Shown here: positions 1 through 15,773 of the stretch, piece after piece
Numbering within the stretch: the stretch's first letter is position 1
Layout of the letters: every line of letters starts with the position of its first letter
NCBI RefSeq assembly: GCF_041438805.1
Contig: NZ_CP109190.1
Coordinates: 2,914,001 to 2,978,000, forward strand
DNA length: 64,000 bases
Reading direction: 5' to 3'
From: Streptomyces sp. NBC_01707
GTDB lineage: Bacteria; Actinomycetota; Actinomycetes; Streptomycetales; Streptomycetaceae
Program-made: the position numbers and the translations under genes
Notes under the pieces: generated by a model
Databases searched by the model: none
Seen by the model: the letters and a program-made list of their open reading frames with translations, nothing else
Told to the model about the DNA's origin: nothing

Positions 1-108
1 TCCGATGACGTTGCCGCCGCGTTCCGCGAGCGCCCGGGCGACGGCCCGGCCGAAGCCGCTGGAGACACCCAGGACGAGGGACCAGGACCCCTGGATTTCT
101 GTGATCAT
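1..108 (-). CDS. Short-chain dehydrogenase/reductase, N-terminal fragment (runs off the window)
   Basis: The visible 36 codons begin MITEIQGSWSLVLGVSSGFG and continue into a helix starting RAVARAL. This is the first beta strand and the glycine-rich NAD(P)-binding turn (GVSSGFG, a variant of TGxxxGxG) of the SDR family. The ATG shares one base with the TAA stop of the preceding ketosynthase-like gene, so it is the next cistron of the polyketide operon. A 3-ketoacyl-ACP reductase or enoyl reductase acting on the growing chain is the natural inference. The substrate cannot be judged because the catalytic Ser-Tyr-Lys region lies outside the window. Confidence 0.75.
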   Translation of the reverse strand, partial: MITEIQGSWSLVLGVSSGFGRAVARALAERGGNVIG

Positions 109-1091
109 TATCGGCTCCTGTTCTGCGGGGGGTGGATGAGGGGTACGTGCGCGGAGGCGTCCAGCCGGGCGAACGCCACGTTGCCCTCCGCCGCGGCCGT
201 CACGACGATCCTGCTGTGGCCGTCCCGGGCGGCGAGCGCGGCGACGAGGTGGCGCAGCGGGGTGAGCGCTCCGGCGCCGGCCGGGGAGACCGTGAGGTCC
301 GCACACCGGTTGTCGAGCCAGGCCTTGACCGCCTCGCCGACGGGCGAGTCGTCGACGACCGCGTCGACCCGTGAGGGACTGTCCCCGTCCTCGGTCAGGG
401 CGCGCCAGGCGTTCTCCAGCGCGCGGCCGGAACGGGCGCCCGGCTCCAGGAAGGCGTCGCGCACCTGCACGGTGCCGTACGAGGACGCCGGGGGCGTGTC
501 GCCTGCGCGGGCGCAGATCAGCGCGACGGCTCCGGTGTCACTGCCGTCGGCGCCCGGTTCGCCGGCGGGCAGCGATTCCTCGGTCGCGCCGACGACGAGC
601 ACGTCGGCCCGGTCGGCGGCCAGTGCCCTGGCACCGGCGCCGAGCGCGTCCAGGGCGGCGGTGCGCGGCGAGTTGACGGTGAGCGTGAAGCCGTTGATCT
701 GATGTTCCGTGGCCAGCCGGGAGGCGAACAGGCTCATCGCGAAGTACGGCGCGGTCAGCGGGGCGATGGCGTCCGCACCCCGACCGATGATCGTGCGGTC
801 CTGCTCGTCCAGCAGGGCCATGCCCGCGTTGTCCGTGCCCACGACGACGCCACGGCGTTCGGCGGGGACGGCGGACAGTGCTCCGTCCGCGTCCGCCAGG
901 GCGTTCCCGGTGGCGGCGAGCAGGTACTGGCAGGCCGAGGGCAGCCGCTTGTAGCCGCGGCCCGGCAGCGCGGCGGCCACGTCGAGCCAGCCGGGGCCAG
1001 GGGTGCCGGTGACGGCCGGGGACAGGGCCTCGGTGGGCTTGTCGGTGCCGGGCAGGCAGACGCCCACCCCGAGGATGTCGAGCGCGCTCAT
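108..1091 (-). CDS. Degenerate ketosynthase-like protein (chain-length-factor type partner)
   Basis: This 327-residue protein has the thiolase fold pattern of beta-ketoacyl synthases: the start MSALDILGVGVCLPG, a VVVGT strand and VLVVGATEE after the nucleophile elbow. It lacks the catalytic residues. The nucleophile position reads NSPRTA (residues 140-145) with no Cys, and neither the HGTGT nor the GHT histidine block is present. It is about 100 residues shorter than an active ketosynthase. Its ATG overlaps the stop of the third ketosynthase gene by 4 nt. By analogy with KS/CLF heterodimers it probably pairs with that enzyme and shapes the chain pocket. The pairing is inferred from gene order; the missing residues are seen directly. 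Confidence 0.7.
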   Translation of the reverse strand: MSALDILGVGVCLPGTDKPTEALSPAVTGTPGPGWLDVAAALPGRGYKRLPSACQYLLAATGNALADADGALSAVPAERRGVVVGTDNAGMALLDEQDRTIIGRGADAIAPLTAPYFAMSLFASRLATEHQINGFTLTVNSPRTAALDALGAGARALAADRADVLVVGATEESLPAGEPGADGSDTGAVALICARAGDTPPASSYGTVQVRDAFLEPGARSGRALENAWRALTEDGDSPSRVDAVVDDSPVGEAVKAWLDNRCADLTVSPAGAGALTPLRHLVAALAARDGHSRIVVTAAAEGNVAFARLDASAHVPLIHPPQNRSR

Positions 1092-2407
1092 GCGGCGGCT
1101 CCCCGCGGGCCCGTGTCCTGGTGTACGGGATCGTGCCGCGCGGTGGCCGCCTGCCCCGCCGTGCCTGGGCGTTCACGTGCGGATCCGGCTCCCGGCACGC
1201 CCGACAGGACGAGCGAGACGTTGTTGCCGCCGAAGGCGTAGGCGTTGACCAGTACGGCGGACGCGCTCAGCGGCACCGGCCGGTCCTGCGGCAACCACAC
1301 CGCGCAGCGCGGGTCCTGCGCGGAGACGGGCGCGTTGGCCGGGACGCGCCCGTGGCGCAGCATCAGCGCCGCTGTCAGCACTCCGAACGCGCCGGCGACC
1401 CCCGCCGTGTGCCCGATCATGGCCTTGAGGCTGAACAGGGGGAGCTCGTCGCAGAGTTCGCCGAACACCTCGCGCAGCGCCTCGCTCTCCACGACGTCGT
1501 TGAGCGGGGTGCCCGTGCCGTGCGGCACCACGCCCCCGACGTCGTCGGGCCGCAGACCCGCGTCGGCCAGCGCCCGGCGCATGCCACGCACGGCCTGGGT
1601 GCCGCCGGGGTCGGGGGCGGTGGGGTGGTGGGCGTCGCAGCTGAAAGCGGCGGCGGACAGTTCCGCGTACGGCGTCGCCCCACGGGCCTCGGCATGCTCG
1701 GCCGACTCCAGGACCAGCATGGCCGCGCCGTCGCCGAAGAGGGTGCCCTGCCGGTCGGTGTCGAAGGGCCGGCAGGCGACCGGGTCGGCCGCGCCGATGC
1801 GGTTGAAGACGCCCATGCCCACGCGGGTCGGTCCCTCCGCACCGCCGGTGAGCACCATGTCCGCCTCCCCGGCCCGGATCATGTCCGCAGCGATCGCCGC
1901 CGCGTAGCCGCTGGCCGCACAGGCGTTGCCGACGCTGGTGCTGCCGCCGGTGGCGCCGATCGCGGCCGAGACCGCGGCGGAGGTCACCGTCATCGGCGAC
2001 CACCTGCCGACGGCCTGGCGAAGCGGTACGGCGTGCTCGGCGGCCCGCCGGGCCTCGTGCCGGCCGGCGTTGCCCATCTCCACGCCCAGTACGACGGAGA
2101 GCCGTTCGCGCCGCGCGTCGTCCAGACCGGCGTCCGCCACCGCTTCGTGGGCGGCGGCGATCGCCATGCGGGGTCCTGCGCCGAGCTCCACGTGGGCATG
2201 CCGCTCGGGCCCGTCGGGGACGTCGGCCTCCGGCACCAGGTACATCAGCCGGTTGGCCATGCGGGCGTCCGGGTCGGTCATGGGCCGGGGCGCGCCGCCT
2301 CCCGAGGTCAGGCCCTGCCAGAAAGCGGGCACGCCCGAGCCCAGACAGGAGATCGCCCCGAGGCCGGTGACGACCACCCGGCGGCCGTTTGCTCCTCGGG
2401 CGCTCAC
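1088..2407 (-). CDS. Beta-ketoacyl-ACP synthase (third KS of the cluster)
   Basis: A full-length KS of 439 aa with an intact triad: Cys163 in GNACAASG, His296 in PHGTGTPLND and His333 in GHTAG, plus Lys328. It should catalyse decarboxylative Claisen condensation of malonyl-ACP onto the ACP-bound chain. The C-terminal FGGNN glycine motif is present, followed by an extra tail of about 30 residues rich in Ala, Arg and Gly. The ATG overlaps the upstream CLF-like stop by 4 nt, and its own stop overlaps the next KS-like gene by 4 nt. Three separate KS genes in one type II operon suggest division of labour by chain length or starter unit (inference). Confidence 0.85.
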   Translation of the reverse strand: MSARGANGRRVVVTGLGAISCLGSGVPAFWQGLTSGGGAPRPMTDPDARMANRLMYLVPEADVPDGPERHAHVELGAGPRMAIAAAHEAVADAGLDDARRERLSVVLGVEMGNAGRHEARRAAEHAVPLRQAVGRWSPMTVTSAAVSAAIGATGGSTSVGNACAASGYAAAIAADMIRAGEADMVLTGGAEGPTRVGMGVFNRIGAADPVACRPFDTDRQGTLFGDGAAMLVLESAEHAEARGATPYAELSAAAFSCDAHHPTAPDPGGTQAVRGMRRALADAGLRPDDVGGVVPHGTGTPLNDVVESEALREVFGELCDELPLFSLKAMIGHTAGVAGAFGVLTAALMLRHGRVPANAPVSAQDPRCAVWLPQDRPVPLSASAVLVNAYAFGGNNVSLVLSGVPGAGSARERPGTAGQAATARHDPVHQDTGPRGAAA

Positions 2408-3375
2408 GCCCCCTCACCTGCTCCGGTCAGCACCAGTGCGGCAGCCGCGTCGTCCGTCGCTCCCCCGCCGCTGGTGGCCAGGACGGGGCCGGGGCCGCCC
2501 GCGACGAGGTGGGCGACGCCCACCGCGGCCTGGACGACGCCGAGTGCTCCCGAGCAGTGGCCGAGCCGCGTGGTGAGGTCCACCGCCGAGGCCGCTGCCG
2601 CGTCCTCGGCCGAGCCGAGCCACAGTCCGGCGGCGGGCGCGCCCTCGTGCAGCGCCTGGGCGACGGCCGTCGCGGAGTCGGCGGCCCGCACACTGCGGGA
2701 CAACGTGGCCAGGGGGCGGGCGCCCCGTTCGGCGACCCGCTCGGCGGACTCCAGGACCAGCGCCGCCGCCCCGTCGAGGACGTCGTGGCCCGAGCCGTCC
2801 GCCAGCAGCCTGGCGGCGGGCTCGGTGTGCGGCTCGACCCCGATGACGACGACCGTCTCGGCCCTGCGCACGGCGAGCAGGTTGCGCGCCCAGTACAGCG
2901 CGTCGGCCCCGCTCGTCGCCCCGTTGCACACCGTGAGGTTGGGCCCGCGCATCCCGTACCGGATGGCGATCCAGCCCGCGATCACATTGGACGAGGTGTG
3001 CGGCAGGCCGAGCGGGCTCAGTCCGGTGACCGTGTGTTCGGTGATGGTCTCGACGAAGTCGCAGACGCTGTCGAGGTTGCCGAGATTGGAGGAGACCACC
3101 ACGGCCGTGGTGTCGCCGGGTCCGGTGTACGTCTCACCGTCGTCGGACAGCAGGCCCGCCTGGCGCAGTGCGGGTCCGACGGCGCGCAGAGCGAGGCGCG
3201 AGGCCCGGTCCTTGTGCCGCATCGCCCTGCCCTTGAGGCCGGTGGCCGGGTCGAACCCCCCGTCGGGGGCGTCCGGGCCCAGAAGATCGGCGGCCTCCGT
3301 CAGACCGGGGACGGCGGTGCCCACTCCGGTGATCACGACGGCTTCCGCCGAACCCGCTTCGTGGCGCGCGGTCAC
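2404..3375 (-). CDS. Ketosynthase-like chain-length-factor homologue (Cys replaced by Ala)
   Basis: Translation from GTG at 3375 gives 323 aa. The start is chosen because GTGA overlaps the TGA of the preceding ketosynthase, the pattern used across this operon. The KS fold is recognisable (VVITGVGTAVPG, VVVSSNLGN, VVVIGVEPHT). The nucleophile elbow reads CNGATSG, with Ala153 where the active Cys should be, and the HGTGT block is missing. A GHCSG motif remains near residue 272. It cannot be a self-sufficient condensing enzyme and most likely forms the non-catalytic half of a heterodimer with the KS encoded just upstream. At 323 aa it is shorter than aromatic-PKS CLFs (about 400 aa). Confidence 0.72.
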   Translation of the reverse strand: MTARHEAGSAEAVVITGVGTAVPGLTEAADLLGPDAPDGGFDPATGLKGRAMRHKDRASRLALRAVGPALRQAGLLSDDGETYTGPGDTTAVVVSSNLGNLDSVCDFVETITEHTVTGLSPLGLPHTSSNVIAGWIAIRYGMRGPNLTVCNGATSGADALYWARNLLAVRRAETVVVIGVEPHTEPAARLLADGSGHDVLDGAAALVLESAERVAERGARPLATLSRSVRAADSATAVAQALHEGAPAAGLWLGSAEDAAAASAVDLTTRLGHCSGALGVVQAAVGVAHLVAGGPGPVLATSGGGATDDAAAALVLTGAGEGA

Positions 3376-4514
3376 GTGCGGTCCCCCTTCTCCAGGACGG
3401 CCACGGCGTTGATGCCGCCGAAGCCGAACGCGTTGATCTGTGCGGTGGACAGTCGGGCGGTGGCGGCCCTGTCGCGTACCAGGCGTAGTCCGGCCGCCTC
3501 GTCGATCGGGTCGGTCAGGCCCAGCACGGGCGGGACCACGCCGTGCCGCAGGGCGAAGGCCGCGGTGACCAGGCTGAGCAGTCCGGAGCCGCCCAGAGTG
3601 TGTCCGGTCATGGACTTGATCGCGGTGAGCAGGGGGCCGGCGCCGGCGCCTTCGAAGACTCCGGACACCGCGGTCGCCTCGGCCGAGTCGTTGAGCTGGG
3701 TGCCGCTGCCGTGCAGCATCACCAGGTCGATCTCGTCGGCCTTGAGCCCGGCCCTGCGGTGCGCGTCCCTGATCGCCCAGGAGATGGTCGTCGGGTCGGG
3801 GGCGGTGGGGTGTGCGGCGTCGCAGTTCATGCTGACGCCGCGGACGACGGCGTGAACTCCCCTGCGGGCGGCGCCCGTTCGCTGGACGACGACGGCGACC
3901 GAACCCTCGCCCATCAGCATGCCCGCGCGGGCCCGGTCGAACGGCCGCAGTGCGTGCGGTGTCTCGTTCTGTACGCGGTCGAGCGTCCCGAAGGCGCTCT
4001 CCGTGATCGAGTCGGTGCCCGCCACCACCACGGTGTCGGTCAGTCCGAGCTCGATCATGTCGGTGGCCATGCCCAGCGTGTACAGCGTGGCGGCGCAGGC
4101 GTTGGCGAAGGTGTAGCTCCGCGCCGTGCCGAACCGGTCCCGCAGCGCGCTGCCGAAGTGCAGGTCCCGCACGGTCAGCGGTGCGCCGTCGCGCCACCAC
4201 AGCTCGGCCGAGCGCTGTTCCCGCAGCGTCGTCCCGACGAGGATCGGGATGCCGTCGGCCGCGGTGTCCAGACCGGCGTCGGTGAGGGCCTGTTCGACCG
4301 CGGTCTCCAGCCACCGGGTGGCGCGCAGTGGGCGATCGGCGCCGTCCGGGCCACGGTCGTCGATCTCGTACGCCTGCTTCGCACGGTACTTGTCCCCGTC
4401 GAAGGCGTGCAGGTCGGTGAGGCCGCTGCGGCCCGCGCACAGCGCGTCGTAGACGGAGCGCGGGTCGTCGCCGATGCTCGCCACGGCCCCGAGGCCCGTG
4501 ATGTCCCAGCTCAT
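3372..4514 (-). CDS. Beta-ketoacyl-ACP synthase (second KS of the cluster)
   Basis: A 380-aa ketosynthase with Cys140 in ANACAAT, His268 in LHGSGTQLND, Lys300 and His305 in GHTLGG, and the C-terminal NAFGFGG motif. The N terminus (MSWDITGLGAVASIG) is compact. It should extend an ACP-bound acyl chain with malonyl units. Its ATG overlaps the stop of the CoA-ligase-like gene by 4 nt, and its stop overlaps the GTG of the Ala-containing CLF-like gene by 4 nt. It is therefore the catalytic member of the second KS/CLF-like pair. The LHGSGTQ variant also differs from the HGTGT of the other two KS enzymes, which suggests separate ancestry rather than a recent local duplication. Confidence 0.85.
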   Translation of the reverse strand: MSWDITGLGAVASIGDDPRSVYDALCAGRSGLTDLHAFDGDKYRAKQAYEIDDRGPDGADRPLRATRWLETAVEQALTDAGLDTAADGIPILVGTTLREQRSAELWWRDGAPLTVRDLHFGSALRDRFGTARSYTFANACAATLYTLGMATDMIELGLTDTVVVAGTDSITESAFGTLDRVQNETPHALRPFDRARAGMLMGEGSVAVVVQRTGAARRGVHAVVRGVSMNCDAAHPTAPDPTTISWAIRDAHRRAGLKADEIDLVMLHGSGTQLNDSAEATAVSGVFEGAGAGPLLTAIKSMTGHTLGGSGLLSLVTAAFALRHGVVPPVLGLTDPIDEAAGLRLVRDRAATARLSTAQINAFGFGGINAVAVLEKGDRT

Positions 4515-6055
4515 CGGTCGACCACCGCTTCCCGGCCCGCCGACTCCCGCAACCGGTTACGTGCGAGCTTTCCCGTGGACGTGGTGGGCAGTACGTCGAT
4601 CACCTCGACCCTGGCCGGGCGTTTGAAGGCCGCCAGGCGGGTGCGGAGAAGGGCGAGGATCGCCTTGCGGACGACGCTGGGGTCGGCGCCCGGCACGGGG
4701 ACGGCGTAGGCCACCGCCTGGTCGAGTCCGTTCTCGTCGCTCACGGCCACGACCGCGCACTCCGCCACCTCGTCGGCCTCGCGCACGACCGCCTCGATCT
4801 CGCCGGGGGCCACCTTGTAGCCACCCATGTTCAGCAGGTCGTCGGCGCGGCACAGGTACCAGAGCTCGCCCGTGTCGTCGCGGCGGACGATGTCGCCGGT
4901 GTACACGCCCCTGTCGGCGAAGGTGCGGCGGGTGGCCTCGGTCCGGTTGAGGTAGCCGAGTGCCACGGAGGGCCCGGCCACGTGCAGCCTGCCCTCGGTT
5001 CCTTCCGGGACCGGTCCGCCGTCCTCGCCCCTGACGGTCGCGGTGGCGCCCGGGACCGGGAATCCGGTGGCCCCCACGGTGATGGCCGCGGGCGGGGTGG
5101 CGACGACGAAGTGCAGGGCCTCGGTGGCGCCGAGGCCGTTGACGAGCGGCACGCCGAACGTCTCGCGCACCCGTTCGGCGAGCGCGGCCGGGCAGTGCTC
5201 GCCCGCAGTGGCGGCCAGCCGCAACGAGGCGGTCGCCGCGGCGCCGTGGCCGGCGGCCAGGGCGAGCAGGGCGACGTACATCCTGGGTACGGAGAACAGC
5301 ACGGTCGGCCGGTGGCGGTGCAGCGCGCTGTGGACCGCGTGCGCGTCGACGCCACCGCGCAGCACCACGGTGCGGGCGCCGGCGGCGAGCGGCAGGATGA
5401 CGGAGTTCCCGAAGCCGTACCCGAAGGACACCTTGGCGGTGGAGAGCACCACGTCGTCGGGTCCGAGCCCGAGCAGTGAGCCGACCGAAGCGGCGACGGC
5501 CTCGATGCCGGTGGCGGCGTGCAGCACGCCCTTGGGCGAGCCGGTGCTGCCCGAGGTGTACTGGATCAGAGCGGGCTGCCCGGCGGCCCAGTCGGCCTCC
5601 TCGGCCGCCGCGTCGGGGGCGTACGCCTGGGACCCGGTGTCGCTCCTGAAGATCGTGCGGACCTCGTCGCCCGTGGTGTGCGGCAGCCGGTCGATGTCCG
5701 CACCCAGCTCCCGCCGGGCGGCGTTCGGTACGTCGAAGTGCGCGAACCCGGCCTCGCAGTCGGCGGCCATGAAGCGCAGTTCGGGGTCGGACAGCGCGGG
5801 GCTGACCGGCACGGGCACACAGCCGTGCCACCACAGGCCCAGGATCGCCGCGGTGGTCGCCACCGAGTCGTCGGCCAGCACCAGGGCCCGGGTGCCTGCC
5901 GGAATCCCGCGCTCGCGCAGGGCCCCCGCGTAGCCGACCACGGCGTCGTGGAGCTGCGCGTAGGTCACCTCGCCGACGTCGGGGTCCACATGGCTGACGC
6001 GGTCCCCCGCGCCTGCCGACACGTGCTTGCCCACCAGTAGTTCCACCAGTTTCAT
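4511..6055 (-). CDS. Acyl/aryl-CoA (or ACP) ligase of the benzoate-CoA ligase type
   Basis: A 514-aa ANL-superfamily adenylating enzyme. The ATP loop YTSGSTGSPKG is at residues 166-176, followed by NGLGATEAL, YTGDIVRRDD, CRADDLLNMGGYKV and the C-terminal catalytic Lys in TSTGKLARNRL. The YTGD and DDLLNMGGY blocks resemble benzoate-CoA ligases more than long-chain fatty acyl ligases. It would activate a carboxylic acid as an adenylate and pass it to CoA or to the cluster ACP. Next to DAHP synthase and a PhzE-type enzyme, an aminobenzoate-like acid is a reasonable substrate (inference). The start is set by the 4-nt overlap with the preceding gene; longer open sequence upstream belongs to that gene in another frame. 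Confidence 0.82.
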   Translation of the reverse strand: MKLVELLVGKHVSAGAGDRVSHVDPDVGEVTYAQLHDAVVGYAGALRERGIPAGTRALVLADDSVATTAAILGLWWHGCVPVPVSPALSDPELRFMAADCEAGFAHFDVPNAARRELGADIDRLPHTTGDEVRTIFRSDTGSQAYAPDAAAEEADWAAGQPALIQYTSGSTGSPKGVLHAATGIEAVAASVGSLLGLGPDDVVLSTAKVSFGYGFGNSVILPLAAGARTVVLRGGVDAHAVHSALHRHRPTVLFSVPRMYVALLALAAGHGAAATASLRLAATAGEHCPAALAERVRETFGVPLVNGLGATEALHFVVATPPAAITVGATGFPVPGATATVRGEDGGPVPEGTEGRLHVAGPSVALGYLNRTEATRRTFADRGVYTGDIVRRDDTGELWYLCRADDLLNMGGYKVAPGEIEAVVREADEVAECAVVAVSDENGLDQAVAYAVPVPGADPSVVRKAILALLRTRLAAFKRPARVEVIDVLPTTSTGKLARNRLRESAGREAVVDR

Positions 6056-7017
6056 CGCGGACCTTTCCTTCGGGACGTCACTTCCACGGCGACGGCGTTG
6101 CCGCTGCCGAGGGCCAGCGCGAGGACGCGCGGGCCCGGTTGTTCCAGCGGGCCGGGGGCGGCCGTCAGGGCGACGGCGGTGACCAGCGCGGCGACGCCCC
6201 CGGCGGCCCCCAGGTCGCCGAGCCGCTCCTCGACCCGCAGCAGCGGCGCCGCACACAGCAGGGCCCGGGCGCCCGCGGCACGGGTGTCTGTCGCGGGCGC
6301 GGACAGGACCAGGTGGTCCGGCGGCCCGTCCAGTCGTTCCAGGCAGGAACGGACGAAGGCGTCGATGCCGTCTCGGGCCGTACGGGCCCTGAGGACCGGC
6401 CGGACGGCCGCTCCCCCGCCGTACGGGGCGTGCCGCTGGAGCACCACGCATAGCGCGCCCTCCGCCGGGTCGCCGCCGGGGCGGAACCGCCACGCGGACG
6501 TGTCCGCCGAGCCTCCGACCACGACGCGCTCGCACCGGCCCCGCGTCAGCATCCGTACGGCCTCGGTGACGGCCTGGGCGCCCGCGTCCTGCTCCCCGGT
6601 CACGTTCAGGTACGGCCCGTCGAGGCCGAAGCGCACGGACACCGCCGTCACGGGCGCGGTGAACGCGGAGTGCGCGGTGCGCCGTGGGGAGACCCGTCCT
6701 GGCCCGAACTCGGTGATGTCGGCGCAGGTCTGCGCGTACGCGGCCAGGCCCGCGGTGGACGAGGCCCACACGGTGGCGGTGCTGCCGCCTGCTCCCGGCG
6801 CCCCGGGTGTGCGGGGGGACGCGGCTGCCATCGCGTCGGTGGCGGCGGCGAGCGCGTGCTCGTGCTCCGGGGCCTCGTTCGCGAAGCGGCGGAGGGCGGA
6901 CGGGGCGAGCAGACCGGACAGACCTGACGCTCCCGGAAGTCGGACGCCGAGCCCGGCTACCGCTACCGCGCTCGGCCGTGCGGGGGCACGCAGGACCGTG
7001 CGTACGGTCTCAGGCAT
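6052..7017 (-). CDS. Chain-length-factor-like ketosynthase homologue with Cys-to-Gln substitution
   Basis: A 321-aa KS-fold protein. At the nucleophile elbow it reads VTGEQDAG, placing Gln143 where active ketosynthases have Cys. The same Cys-to-Gln exchange marks the KS-beta/CLF subunits of aromatic type II polyketide synthases and KSQ decarboxylases. The HGTGT histidine block is not found; the LGAAGG stretch near residue 270 seems to replace GHT-type sequence. Its ATG lies inside the last codons of the preceding ketosynthase (8-nt overlap), so the two are translationally coupled and probably form an alpha/beta heterodimer. A role in chain length or malonyl decarboxylation is inferred. Confidence 0.75.
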   Translation of the reverse strand: MPETVRTVLRAPARPSAVAVAGLGVRLPGASGLSGLLAPSALRRFANEAPEHEHALAAATDAMAAASPRTPGAPGAGGSTATVWASSTAGLAAYAQTCADITEFGPGRVSPRRTAHSAFTAPVTAVSVRFGLDGPYLNVTGEQDAGAQAVTEAVRMLTRGRCERVVVGGSADTSAWRFRPGGDPAEGALCVVLQRHAPYGGGAAVRPVLRARTARDGIDAFVRSCLERLDGPPDHLVLSAPATDTRAAGARALLCAAPLLRVEERLGDLGAAGGVAALVTAVALTAAPGPLEQPGPRVLALALGSGNAVAVEVTSRRKGPR

Positions 7018-8248
7018 CGTCGCCCCCGGCTGCGCCGAGCAGGAGCGCTGACACCCCGCCGCCCAGCCCGAAGGCGAGGCTGAGCACGGTGGCGACCGGG
7101 GCTTCGCGGCCCCGCGGCGGCACCAGGTCCAGGCCGGCGCAGGCCGGGTCGGGCCGGCGGAGGGTGGCGTTGCCCGGGAGGTGTTCTGCGGCCAGTGCGA
7201 GCACCGCGACCACTGCTTCGAGTACTCCCGCCGCGCCCTGGGTGTGGCCGAGCATGCCCTTGAGCGAGGACACGGCCGGCCTGCGCCGCCCGGGTCCGCC
7301 GAGGGCGGAGACGATCGCCCGCGCCTCGACGCCGTCGCTCGCGGGGGTGCCGGTGCCGTGCGCGCACACCCAGTCGATCTCCTCGGGCGCACGGTCCGCG
7401 TCCCGCAGACAGGTGCCGATCGCCTCGACGAGGGCGTCGCCGGTCGGCCGCGGCCGGGTGAGGTGGTACGCGTCGGCCGCAGCACCGTGTGCCAGCAGAA
7501 CGGCCAGCGGAAGTCCGCCGCGTGCGGCGCAGTGCTCGGCGCTCTCCAGGATCACGACGGCGGCGCCCTCGGCGGGCTGCATGCCGAGCCGGTCGCCGTC
7601 GAAAGGGCGGGCGACGTCGGGGGCGAGCGCCCGCAGCGTGGTGAACATGGCGAACACCTCCTGGGAGAGCTCCTCGGCCCCGCCGCAGATCGCGACGTCC
7701 ACCTCTCCCTCGGAGATCGCGGCGGCCCCGCATGCCACGGCGTCGCCGCCGACGGAGCAGCCGGAGGCCAGCAACACCACGGGCCCGTCGACCGGTACGA
7801 CCTCGGGCACCAGGTCGAGCAGCCGTTCCGGCTCGGCCCAGTCGGTGCCCTCGGCCGTCAGTCCGGCGGAGGTGATGCCGTGGTCCAGGACCGGCCTGGT
7901 GCCCATGACCGTCCCGGCGAAGACGCCGGTACGGGCGCGGCTCCCGGTGCGGGTGAGCCCCGCGCCGTGTGCCGCTTCCGCCGCGGCGGCAGCCAGGCAG
8001 CGGGCGGCGAGCGAGCGGTGCGGCGGCACGAGGGAGTCGAGCCGTGACAGCGCGGACCGGGGGATCTCCCCGGCGCGGTGCGAGGGGTGGCGGGAGGTGT
8101 CGAAGCGGGTGACGGGCCCCGTGGTCACCCGGCCTTCGCGTACGGCGTCCCACAGCGCCCGGTGACCGAGTCCGGCCGGCGACACCGCGCCGACCCCCGT
8201 CACCACGATGCCGGCGCGCCCCGGTGGGCACTCGACGGCAGTCGCCAT
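7010..8248 (-). CDS. Beta-ketoacyl-ACP synthase (first KS of the cluster)
   Basis: This 412-aa FabF-like ketosynthase carries Cys164 in ASGCSVGGDA, His297 in AHGTGTPASD, Lys330 and His335 in GHTQG. It follows the ACP gene directly: its ATG shares one base with the ACP stop (TGATG), which sets the start although the frame stays open further upstream. It is the catalytic partner of the Gln-containing CLF-like protein. The CSVGG elbow differs from the ACAASG and ACAAT of the other two KS enzymes, so the three active KS proteins are diverged paralogues. It acts in the cytosol on ACP-bound intermediates. Confidence 0.87.
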   Translation of the reverse strand: MATAVECPPGRAGIVVTGVGAVSPAGLGHRALWDAVREGRVTTGPVTRFDTSRHPSHRAGEIPRSALSRLDSLVPPHRSLAARCLAAAAAEAAHGAGLTRTGSRARTGVFAGTVMGTRPVLDHGITSAGLTAEGTDWAEPERLLDLVPEVVPVDGPVVLLASGCSVGGDAVACGAAAISEGEVDVAICGGAEELSQEVFAMFTTLRALAPDVARPFDGDRLGMQPAEGAAVVILESAEHCAARGGLPLAVLLAHGAAADAYHLTRPRPTGDALVEAIGTCLRDADRAPEEIDWVCAHGTGTPASDGVEARAIVSALGGPGRRRPAVSSLKGMLGHTQGAAGVLEAVVAVLALAAEHLPGNATLRRPDPACAGLDLVPPRGREAPVATVLSLAFGLGGGVSALLLGAAGGDDA

Positions 8249-8505
8249 CAGACCACCTTTCCCTTGTCGCGCAGCAGCGCCAGCACGGCCGACGCCGACG
8301 TCATTTCGCCCGCCTCGTCGGGACTGACCGAGATCTCGAATTCCCGCTCCACCCGCACGGCGATCTCGACCTTCTCCAGGGAGTCCGCCGCCAGGTCGTC
8401 GTAGAAACTCGCTTCCGGTTCCACGCTTTCGATGTCGATCTCCAGGATTTCCGCGACGATGCCGCGCACCCGGTCGAGAGCGGCAATGCTCTGCACATCG
8501 GACAT
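8248..8505 (-). CDS. Acyl carrier protein
   Basis: An acidic 85-aa protein whose DLAADSLEKVEI motif places the phosphopantetheine attachment Ser at residue 42. The preceding VEPEASFYDD and the downstream FEISVSPDEAGEM match helices I-III of type II ACPs. It is the only carrier protein in the visible part of the cluster, so the three KS pairs may share it unless others lie beyond the left edge. It starts 9 nt after the DAHP synthase stop and its own stop overlaps the ATG of the first ketosynthase, so expression should be coupled. Confidence 0.92.
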   Translation of the reverse strand: MSDVQSIAALDRVRGIVAEILEIDIESVEPEASFYDDLAADSLEKVEIAVRVEREFEISVSPDEAGEMTSASAVLALLRDKGKVV

Positions 8506-14048: not shown

Positions 14049-15773
14049 ATGGCGACGCCCAGACCCCGTTTGTCCCGCTTCCGCCGAGACACACGGCAGC
14101 AGCCCGCACCCGAGGTCACCACGGTGGACCGGCGTGCCAGGCTCCTGGCGGGTGACCCGTCACTGGCCGAGTTGACGACCGACGGGCGCACCTGGGTAGG
14201 ACGGCGTGTGACCAGCCTGGAGGAGGGACGGGCGGCCGAGCGCAACCTCCGGCTCGTCACGGCCGCCCTGGAACACGGTGGCGTCGAATACTTCCTGGTG
14301 CCCGGACGCTCCGTACAGCGATACGTCGTCGGGATCCGGCTCGCCGACCGCAAGGCCCTGCTGAGCTCCCTGCGAGAGCTGTACGCCGGTACCGCCCTGT
14401 ATGCGGCGGAGCCCGTCTCGGACATCTGGCCCGCCAACGCGGCGCTCTACGCCGAAGGCGCACTGCCCACGGAACTCAAGCGGCGCCCGGTCATACGGTT
14501 CGGCGAGATCCTCCTCGGCCCTTCGGGCCAGGTTCTCGCCGGGCTCGTCCGAGGCTGCGACGTGGAGTTCTGGCGGGACGGCGGCCTGCTCCACGAGCAG
14601 CGTGAACAGGGCGACGCCCGTGCCACCGAGCTGCTCGGCAGCCTCCGCTTCCAGGCGCCGCCCGCACTCCTCGACGGCGCACTGGTTGGCCCCCGCCCCA
14701 ACGCGGTCTCCGACGTCGTACCGGCCGAGGCCCAGAAGCCCGCCACCCGGACAATCCGGGGCACAGACCACCCCACGTTCGCCGATTTCACCGAACCCGG
14801 CATCGACACCGTCACTTTCCCCCTGGACGTCGTCTACACATGGGTGGACGGCGACGACCCAGCTCTGGCCGCAAAGCGCGAGGCCCACCGCACCGGCCGA
14901 GCACCCGACGCGCAGTCCCGTGAGGCGGGCGCCTCCCGCTACACCAGCCACGACGAGCTCAAGTACTCACTGCGTTCCCTGGAGATGTACGCGCCGTTCG
15001 TGCGGAACATCTACATCGTCACCGACGGCCAGAGCCCCTCATGGCTGGACACCGCGGCGCCCGGCATCCGAGTCGTCGACCACAAGGAGATATTCAGCGA
15101 CCCGGATGCACTCCCCGTCTTCAACTCCCACGCCATCGGAACCCAGTTGCACCACATCGACGGGCTCTCCGAGCAGTACCTGTACTTCAACGACGACGTC
15201 TTCCTGGGCCGCCCGATCACGCCAGGACACTTCTTCCACGGCAACGGCATCGCCAAGGTGCCCTTCTCGCCCTCCCAACTCGGCCTCGGGGCACCGCATC
15301 CTGACGAACCGGCCCCCAATTCGGCGGGCAAGAACGTCCGGCGCCTGCTGCAGGGGAATCACGGACGCATGACAGTGAACAAGTTCGCGCACGCCCCGCA
15401 CCCTCAACTCCGCTCAGTGATGCGCGAAATAGAGGAGCGCTACGCGGAGGACGTCGACCGCACCAGCAGGTCCCGGTTCCGCGCCCCCAGCGACATCGCC
15501 ATGGGAGCGTCGTTCCATCACCATCAGGCTTTCCTCACCGGCCGAGCGGTGCCCGCGACGTACAAGGCACGTTACGTGGACGTGGCCCGGGGAGACGCGG
15601 ACGAACGGCTCGCCGAACTCCTGACGAACCGCCGCTTCGACTTCTTCTGCCTCAACGACGTCAACACCCCCTCCGAGCAGCAGGAAGAGATCCACCAAAA
15701 GATCCATGCCTTCCTGGAGAGCTACTTCCCCTTCCCCAGCCGCTTCGAGCGCACCACCGTCACACACACCTGA
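14049..15773 (+). CDS. Stealth-family sugar-phosphate transferase (capsule-type phosphotransferase)
   Basis: A 574-aa protein whose C-terminal half carries the four conserved Stealth regions in order: CR1 VVYTWVDGDDP near 261-271, CR2 from DELKYSLRSLEMYAPF (302-317) through NSHAIG to YFNDDVFLG (379-387), CR3 around GRMTVNKFAHAPHP, and CR4 RFDFFCLNDVN near the C terminus. Stealth proteins transfer hexose-1-phosphates in capsule, cell-wall glycan and glycopeptidolipid synthesis. The first 255 residues match none of these regions and look like a separate accessory domain. It has no signal peptide. A link to the upstream polyketide cluster is possible but unproven; the 267-bp gap in front of it suggests its own promoter. 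Confidence 0.85.
   Translation: MATPRPRLSRFRRDTRQQPAPEVTTVDRRARLLAGDPSLAELTTDGRTWVGRRVTSLEEGRAAERNLRLVTAALEHGGVEYFLVPGRSVQRYVVGIRLADRKALLSSLRELYAGTALYAAEPVSDIWPANAALYAEGALPTELKRRPVIRFGEILLGPSGQVLAGLVRGCDVEFWRDGGLLHEQREQGDARATELLGSLRFQAPPALLDGALVGPRPNAVSDVVPAEAQKPATRTIRGTDHPTFADFTEPGIDTVTFPLDVVYTWVDGDDPALAAKREAHRTGRAPDAQSREAGASRYTSHDELKYSLRSLEMYAPFVRNIYIVTDGQSPSWLDTAAPGIRVVDHKEIFSDPDALPVFNSHAIGTQLHHIDGLSEQYLYFNDDVFLGRPITPGHFFHGNGIAKVPFSPSQLGLGAPHPDEPAPNSAGKNVRRLLQGNHGRMTVNKFAHAPHPQLRSVMREIEERYAEDVDRTSRSRFRAPSDIAMGASFHHHQAFLTGRAVPATYKARYVDVARGDADERLAELLTNRRFDFFCLNDVNTPSEQQEEIHQKIHAFLESYFPFPSRFERTTVTHT

Follow-up and report, generated by a model that had tools for sequence, protein, structure and literature searches.

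The biosynthetic locus described here lies at the left end of a 64,000-nucleotide (nt) stretch of Streptomyces sp. NBC_01707 DNA (the window; C1:2914001-2978000 in a 9.9 Mb genome) and contains an operon that encodes three pairs of type II polyketide synthase (PKS) proteins, each a ketosynthase (KS) with a KS-like partner of the chain-length factor (CLF) type. The 20 kb to the left of the window were also analyzed, the genes there being predicted with a codon-usage-based caller. As the first-pass annotation had it, each of three KSs with intact catalytic residues directly precedes a shorter, KS-like protein without the active site cysteine; coordinates, matches to Pfam family PF00109 and alignment with relatives agree on this point. 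The PF00109 E values were 5e-25, 6e-17 and 2e-30 for KS1, KS2 and KS3, and 5e-7, 5e-15 and 7e-9 for CLF1, CLF2 and CLF3. In the alignment the cysteine, histidine, lysine and second histidine are all present in the three KSs, and the cysteine column is occupied by glutamine in CLF1, alanine in CLF2 and arginine in CLF3. All three CLFs have lost the first histidine, and the second is retained by CLF2 alone. The best solved relative of KS2 is the ishigamide KS (6kxd). The fold model of CLF1 was poor (predicted local distance difference test score of 57, from three sequences), and the KS and CLF chains that it matched support such a fold only weakly.

The genes are tightly coupled, also as annotated, with overlaps at eight of the nine junctions from the gene for 3-deoxy-D-arabino-heptulosonate 7-phosphate (DAHP) synthase to that for a short-chain dehydrogenase/reductase (SDR). 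The overlap is 4 nt at each of CLF1-LIG, LIG-KS2, KS2-CLF2, CLF2-KS3 and KS3-CLF3 (LIG being an AMP-binding aryl ligase), 1 nt at CLF3-SDR and at the junction of KS1 with an upstream acyl carrier protein (ACP) gene, ACP1, and 8 nt at KS1-CLF1; the remaining junction, between the DAHP synthase gene and ACP1, is a gap of 9 nt. In the DNA retrieved to the left the operon continues with the rest of SDR, a second ACP (ACP2), a FabG-like ketoreductase (KR), an alpha/beta hydrolase, a luciferase-like monooxygenase (LLM) family oxidoreductase and a flavin adenine dinucleotide (FAD) monooxygenase. Hence, there are two ACPs where the annotation had one visible ACP; only one was visible because the window edge cuts the operon. 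The annotation had also made no mention of LIG, which lies between the pairs, or of the adjoining genes for the DAHP synthase and a PhzE-like enzyme, which are adjacent to one another. The PhzE-like gene and a major facilitator superfamily (MFS) exporter gene, which is probably a cluster member, lie to the right of the operon and diverge from it (Table 1). To the right of the exporter, at window positions 14208-15773, is a gene for a Stealth-family protein in which all four Stealth regions match Pfam; it is probably outside the cluster.

Table 1 Genes of the locus (window positions unless a locus number is given; aa, amino acids)
Feature	Position	Strand	Basis or remark
SDR 3' end (whole protein 268 aa)	1..108 (whole gene L007:11302-12108, window about -698..108)	-	FabL/FabI-like
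CLF3, KS-like without Cys, 327 aa	108..1091	-	Pfam, alignment, CLF tree
KS3, Cys-His-Lys-His, 439 aa	1088..2407	-	Pfam, alignment, KS tree
CLF2, KS-like without Cys, 323 aa	2404..3375	-	Pfam, alignment, CLF tree
KS2, Cys-His-Lys-His, 380 aa	3372..4514	-	Pfam, alignment, KS tree, solved relative
LIG, benzoate/anthranilate-CoA-ligase-like AMP-binding enzyme, 514 aa	4511..6055	-	Pfam, NCBIfam, structure relatives
CLF1, KS-like, Gln for Cys, 321 aa	6052..7017	-	Pfam, alignment, CLF tree
KS1, Cys-His-Lys-His, 412 aa	7010..8248	-	Pfam, alignment, KS tree
ACP1, 85 aa	8248..8505	-	PF00550, 47.2 bits
Class II DAHP synthase, PhzC-like in length, 402 aa	8515..9723	-	Best solved relative 6bmc
PhzE-like chorismate-binding/amidotransferase fusion, 643 aa	10118..12049	+	Best structure match 3r74, 623 bits
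MFS exporter, 492 aa	12303..13781	+	Pfam
ACP2	L006:18983-19237 (window about -1017..-763)		Pfam; left of window
FabG-like KR	L006:18082-18828		Open frame; left of window
Alpha/beta hydrolase	L006:16998-17972		Left of window
LLM oxidoreductase	L006:15943-17001		TIGR03559, above cut-off; left of window
FAD monooxygenase	L006:14643-15824		Left of window
4HBT-family	L006:14155-14577	opposite to operon	Left of window
Large LuxR-type regulator	L006:11757-14129	opposite to operon	Left of window

The gene set is beyond chance, because it is syntenic in two other genomes, G273 and G398, the latter from another genus of the same family. G273 has these genes, the MFS exporter among them, in unchanged order at 89-97% identity (ACP2 is 100% identical over 66 aa, at a sequence edge). 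In G398, 17 genes from the regulator to the PhzE-like gene keep the same order at 47-73% identity, and CLF1, recognized by translation, is the eighteenth; no MFS gene was matched beside the PhzE-like gene there. G398 has in addition a methyltransferase-like gene (L161:4380-5054) between the 4HBT and FAD monooxygenase genes, which is lacking from the window, and the G398 product may therefore be methylated. KS1 is rare. At E 1e-70 the same five genomes gave matches in draws of 295 and 392 genus genomes (three of the five being just 44% identical), as did six of 327 family genomes at 1e-60 and one of 325 class genomes at 1e-80, that of the window itself; these draws overlap. CLF2 gave matches in 114 of the 295 genus genomes at 1e-10, many of which are near the threshold and may be other KS-like proteins.

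The three pairs have separate ancestries: one is aurachin-like, one is linked to aryl ligases and one is of the cinnamoyl-lipid pair 3 type. This was seen in a careful KS tree of 58 sequences, from which ten of the 68 sequences of a quick tree had been removed (one with a very long branch and nine near copies or outliers), and in a quick CLF tree of 50 sequences that left out CLF1 of G398. The labels aryl and cinnamoyl were assigned here to the tree groups from gene content. KS1 grouped with KSs of loci L035 and L036 and their relatives (support 100/100), and a wider group (100/99) added L037, L144 and P0183, a KS from the producer of aurachin SS, Streptomyces sp. NA04227, that is known here by its sequence. 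KS2 fell in a group (99/91) of KSs that adjoin aryl ligases, inside a clade (100/100) shared with cinnamoyl-type KS2s, and KS3 clustered with cinnamoyl-type KS3s (17 sequences, 100/98). The CLF tree was congruent, an indirect sign of pairing between each KS and its own CLF, with CLF2 placed among aryl-ligase-linked CLFs and CLF3 among cinnamoyl-type CLF3s. As the pairs occupy three clades, their origin as three tandem copies of a single pair was ruled out.

The neighborhoods of these relatives were then compared. A profile search of contigs with the KS1 alignment gave at least 80 loci, mostly FabF-like, of which 12 were examined (L038 had no called genes). Among KS1 kin, the order ACP-KS-CLF-LIG was found in L035, L036 and L037, the unit standing alone in the first two. 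L037 and L072 have the order UbiA-ACP-KS-CLF-LIG, L037 also has a P450 gene, and UbiA was detected in L037, L072 and L144. In 13 loci (L022-L034) picked from the CLF2 genus-search matches, mostly the better ones, so that fractions are not those of a random sample, LIG-KS2-CLF2 was contiguous in 12, and a KR-like gene followed in five of the 13; L023 showed only CLF2 and an ACP-like gene. Eleven further loci chosen in the same way (L147-L157) included six that have KS3-CLF3-SDR together with three KS and three CLF-like genes. One of these neighborhoods, L149, has the order ACP, KS, KS, CLF, hydrolase, 4HBT, KS, CLF, SDR, hydrolase, three small genes, CLF, ACP, two FabA/ApeI-like genes and KR, an arrangement compatible with the gene letters GlaD to GlaU insofar as PMC9381841 names them. 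By position, KS3/CLF3 would be kin of YsfJ-YsfK, the pair of the youssoufene (ysf) system reported to take ACP-linked benzene-ring intermediates (PMC9381841).

Several related loci have unusual arrangements of their own. The LIG-KS2-CLF2-KR sets of L139 (G023), L140 (G192) and L034 (G145) are neighbors of PhzD and PhzE genes; L139 and L140 also have PhzC and a further SDR, and ACP2 was called in L140 and L034. These highly reducing type II PKSs probably use a 3-hydroxyanthranilate-type starter. L140:12834-13613 encodes a true FabI (403 bits against a cut-off of 299; InhA, 324 bits, was under its cut-off) and has a counterpart in L139. In both loci the gene adjoins the starter genes and could encode either a biosynthetic enoyl reductase or a self-resistance copy. 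L146, L163 and L164 have KS3-CLF3-SDR-ACP2-KR-KS1-like blocks that lack LIG and lie next to long genes, encoding 2077 aa in L146 and 2092 aa in L163, parts of which are KS-like; these are apparently type II/type I hybrid PKSs. The cinnamoyl-type loci L150 and L152 each encode two homologues of the window FAD monooxygenase (42-48% identity), which may hint at the role of the latter.

A starter is suggested by the genes that the first-pass annotation had passed over. The structure closest to the PhzE-like protein is 3r74, which we take to be PhzE, and the best matches of LIG are benzoate-CoA ligases, with the anthranilate-CoA ligase 4wv3 at E 1e-59. Homology predicts the PhzE-like protein to be either an anthranilate synthase or a 2-amino-2-deoxyisochorismate (ADIC) synthase. 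Given these neighbors, the starter would be an aryl acid derived from chorismate, most likely anthranilate. Comparison of 20 PhzE-like loci, picked by score rather than randomly, showed PhzD beside the PhzE-like gene in all 16 higher-scoring or KS2-linked loci (L125-L140) and in none of the four taken as primary synthases (L124, L141-L143). With the L034 PhzD as query, which is 64-72% identical to the intact PhzD proteins of L125-L140, the window genome gave just 28% and 31% matches, and a phenazine reading was set aside for this reason; its nine isochorismatase-family matches include none in the cluster. Tomaymycin biosynthesis provides a precedent for such a gene set, as the DAHP synthase TomC acts there with TomD/TomP, PhzE-like anthranilate synthases without PhzD, whereas limazepine Lim6 forms ADIC, and sequence cannot distinguish the two activities (PMC5958127). 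We therefore favor anthranilate, with ADIC as a rival.

We also sought the genes that accompany pairs of the KS2 and KS3 types in cinnamoyl-type loci. At a threshold of E 1e-4, no homologues of the DSBA-type isomerase (queries from L152 and L153) were found in the window and the adjoining 20 kb on its left side, in G398 (40 kb) or in G273 (28 kb), the rest of the genome not being searched. The same three loci gave no matches to the FabA-like/ApeI-like dehydratases of L149 or the corresponding proteins of L153 and L152, and no orthologues of KSx and CLFx. The SDR has the spacing Tyr-x6-Lys, as do all 14 SDRs compared. This spacing is a signature of FabI/FabL-type enoyl-ACP reductases, and the SDR is accordingly annotated as a predicted enoyl reductase.

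We consider it evenly balanced whether the cluster encodes an anthranilate-primed, staged, highly reducing type II PKS, for which we infer the starter, the order of the pairs and the product. The DAHP synthase and PhzE-like enzyme would channel chorismate to an aromatic amino acid, most likely anthranilate, and LIG would activate this aryl acid and load it onto ACP1, with ACP2 bearing malonyl or growing chains. KS1/CLF1 and KS2/CLF2 would perform the first condensations on the aryl-ACP and KS3/CLF3 would further extend the aryl chain. Reduction would fall to the FabG-like KR, dehydration to an enzyme borrowed from fatty acid synthesis, and the SDR may act at one or more enoyl steps. Following release by the hydrolase or the 4HBT protein, the amine could attack a keto group that had been left unreduced, and the molecule would be finished by the FAD and LLM oxidoreductases, giving a 2-aminophenyl polyene or alkyl chain, or a 2-substituted quinoline or quinolone. 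The pathway would resemble a cinnamoyl-lipid relay in which the benzene ring comes from the shikimate pathway rather than being built from a polyene. As the isomerase, dehydratase and KSx/CLFx homologues were not found, import of a ready ring with retention of the ring-extending part is the simplest reading. More specific, and put forward tentatively as possible rather than probable, is a three-stage relay in which heterodimers from three PKS families (aurachin-type, aryl-primed and ring-recognizing) act on one shikimate-derived 2-aminobenzoyl primer. The earlier suggestion that the pairs extend a chain in stages or from different starters is upheld in part: each pair is of a different origin, the ACPs number two, a starter is now suggested, and different starters, though possible, need not be assumed.

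Several observations weigh against this anthranilate-primed relay. It is the gene order of L149 that connects KS3/CLF3 with YsfJ-YsfK, and the division of labor between KS1 and KS2 is unclear because both resemble starter-handling enzymes. There is no dehydratase gene in the cluster. The role of the SDR as an enoyl reductase is unsure, because its best NCBIfam match, FabL, scored 117.5 bits against a cut-off of 328, with no listed model above its cut-off, and because the authors of the work on globisporamic acid (gla) state that an enoyl reductase is absent from such clusters (PMC9381841). The PhzE-like protein falls on the ADIC-synthase side of its tree, on a branch of its own, and of 48 diagnostic columns 32 are ADIC-like, seven primary-like and nine neither. 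The last points, together with the absence of PhzD from the cluster and the weak PhzD matches elsewhere in the genome, are also those that favor a different starter, namely ADIC, or a derivative formed when the FAD or LLM oxidoreductase acts on it, loaded by LIG. The PhzE-like protein is indeed closer to the PhzD-linked ADIC synthases than to the four primary synthases. We nevertheless judge such a starter quite improbable, given that TomD/TomP make anthranilate without PhzD (PMC5958127), that the ADIC and primary types are not distinguished here by the three residues in contact with chorismate, and that LIG resembles benzoate and anthranilate ligases.

The pairs might instead belong to two converging lines, KS1/CLF1 with ACP1 and LIG giving 2-aminobenzoylacetyl-ACP and KS2/CLF2 plus KS3/CLF3 with ACP2, KR and SDR giving a reduced acyl chain, the two being joined to a 2-alkylquinolone that the FAD monooxygenase would oxidize. 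The presence of two ACPs, the free-standing units of L035 and L036, and the contiguity here of KS3-CLF3-SDR-ACP2-KR, which occurs without LIG in L146, L163 and L164, are consistent with such an arrangement. However, the kin of KS2-CLF2 immediately follow an aryl ligase gene in 12 of the 13 selected loci, which argues for an aryl substrate of KS2, and no gene for joining two acyl chains was recognized; we regard this scheme as unlikely. That the locus is an ordinary cinnamoyl-lipid cluster making its own benzene ring through polyene cyclization seems very improbable. Homologues of KS2/CLF2, KS3/CLF3, SDR, ACP2, KR, the hydrolase and the FAD monooxygenase are common to such clusters, but the isomerase, the FabA-like dehydratase pair and the KSx/CLFx orthologues were not found in the three loci, and the DAHP synthase, PhzE-like enzyme, LIG, ACP1 and KS1/CLF1 would be extra genes.

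If the three-stage relay is correct, its products, 2-aminophenyl polyenes or long-chain quinolines, would form a new class, and the locus would be a natural case of a ready-made ring imported into cinnamoyl-lipid logic. The anthranilate-primed scheme, if correct, would mean that chain length and reduction in type II PKSs can be set by grouping heterodimers of distinct origin around a single primer. The cluster would then be a compact test of chain hand-over between KS/CLF pairs as well as a pointer to an anthranilate-derived product, and the relatives in which KS2 sets adjoin complete 3-hydroxyanthranilate-type starter genes suggest that there are more products.

No published cluster with this combination was recognized in the literature searched, which consisted of listings and passages mainly of papers outside subscription, and the known systems each share a part of it. 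Two or three KS-CLF pairs are usual in cinnamoyl-lipid systems; the gla and youssoufene clusters are three-pair type II PKSs, and the ysf pairs act in stages (PMC9381841). The three-pair architecture is therefore known from a family with known products, and the cinnamoyl-type loci share with the window KS2-CLF2, KS3-CLF3-SDR, ACP2, KR, hydrolase and FAD monooxygenase homologues. However, the isomerase, dehydratase pair and KSx/CLFx that define the ysf and gla clusters were not found here, and in their place the locus has LIG, ACP1, an aurachin-like pair and a set of genes for a starter derived from chorismate. The tomaymycin and limazepine clusters likewise have a dedicated DAHP synthase and PhzE-like synthase, but there the starter feeds a nonribosomal peptide synthetase, and limazepine biosynthesis (Lim3/Lim6) also includes PhzD and a trans-2,3-dihydro-3-hydroxyanthranilate (DHHA) oxidoreductase (PMC5958127). 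The aurachin clusters aua, rau and sau are primed by anthranilate, with the order UbiA-ACP-KS-CLF-LIG in sau and aua (PMC10295502), an order shared by L037 and L072. ACP1-KS1-CLF1-LIG corresponds to that unit, in agreement with the tree position of KS1, whereas two further pairs, KR and SDR are found only here and no UbiA-type prenyltransferase was detected by Pfam among the 20 cluster-region proteins scanned. The avenalumic acid cluster (ava) has an acyl-ACP ligase, two ACPs, KS/CLF and a FabG-like KR; for the p-coumaric acid cluster (cma), which has a flavin mononucleotide (FMN) enzyme instead of such a KR, a dehydratase from fatty acid synthase was proposed (PMC10777205), as we suggest above. 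Aryl ligase, two ACPs, KS/CLF and KR are thus shared, the KR being FabG-like as in ava. Both differ in having a single KS/CLF pair and a 3-amino-4-hydroxybenzoic acid (3,4-AHBA) starter with diazotase genes; no proteins for 3,4-AHBA synthesis or diazotization were found among the cluster proteins scanned with Pfam and NCBIfam. Hence, multi-pair type II PKSs are already known, and what appears to be new at this locus is the combination of aurachin-, avenalumic-acid- and cinnamoyl-lipid-type enzyme sets.

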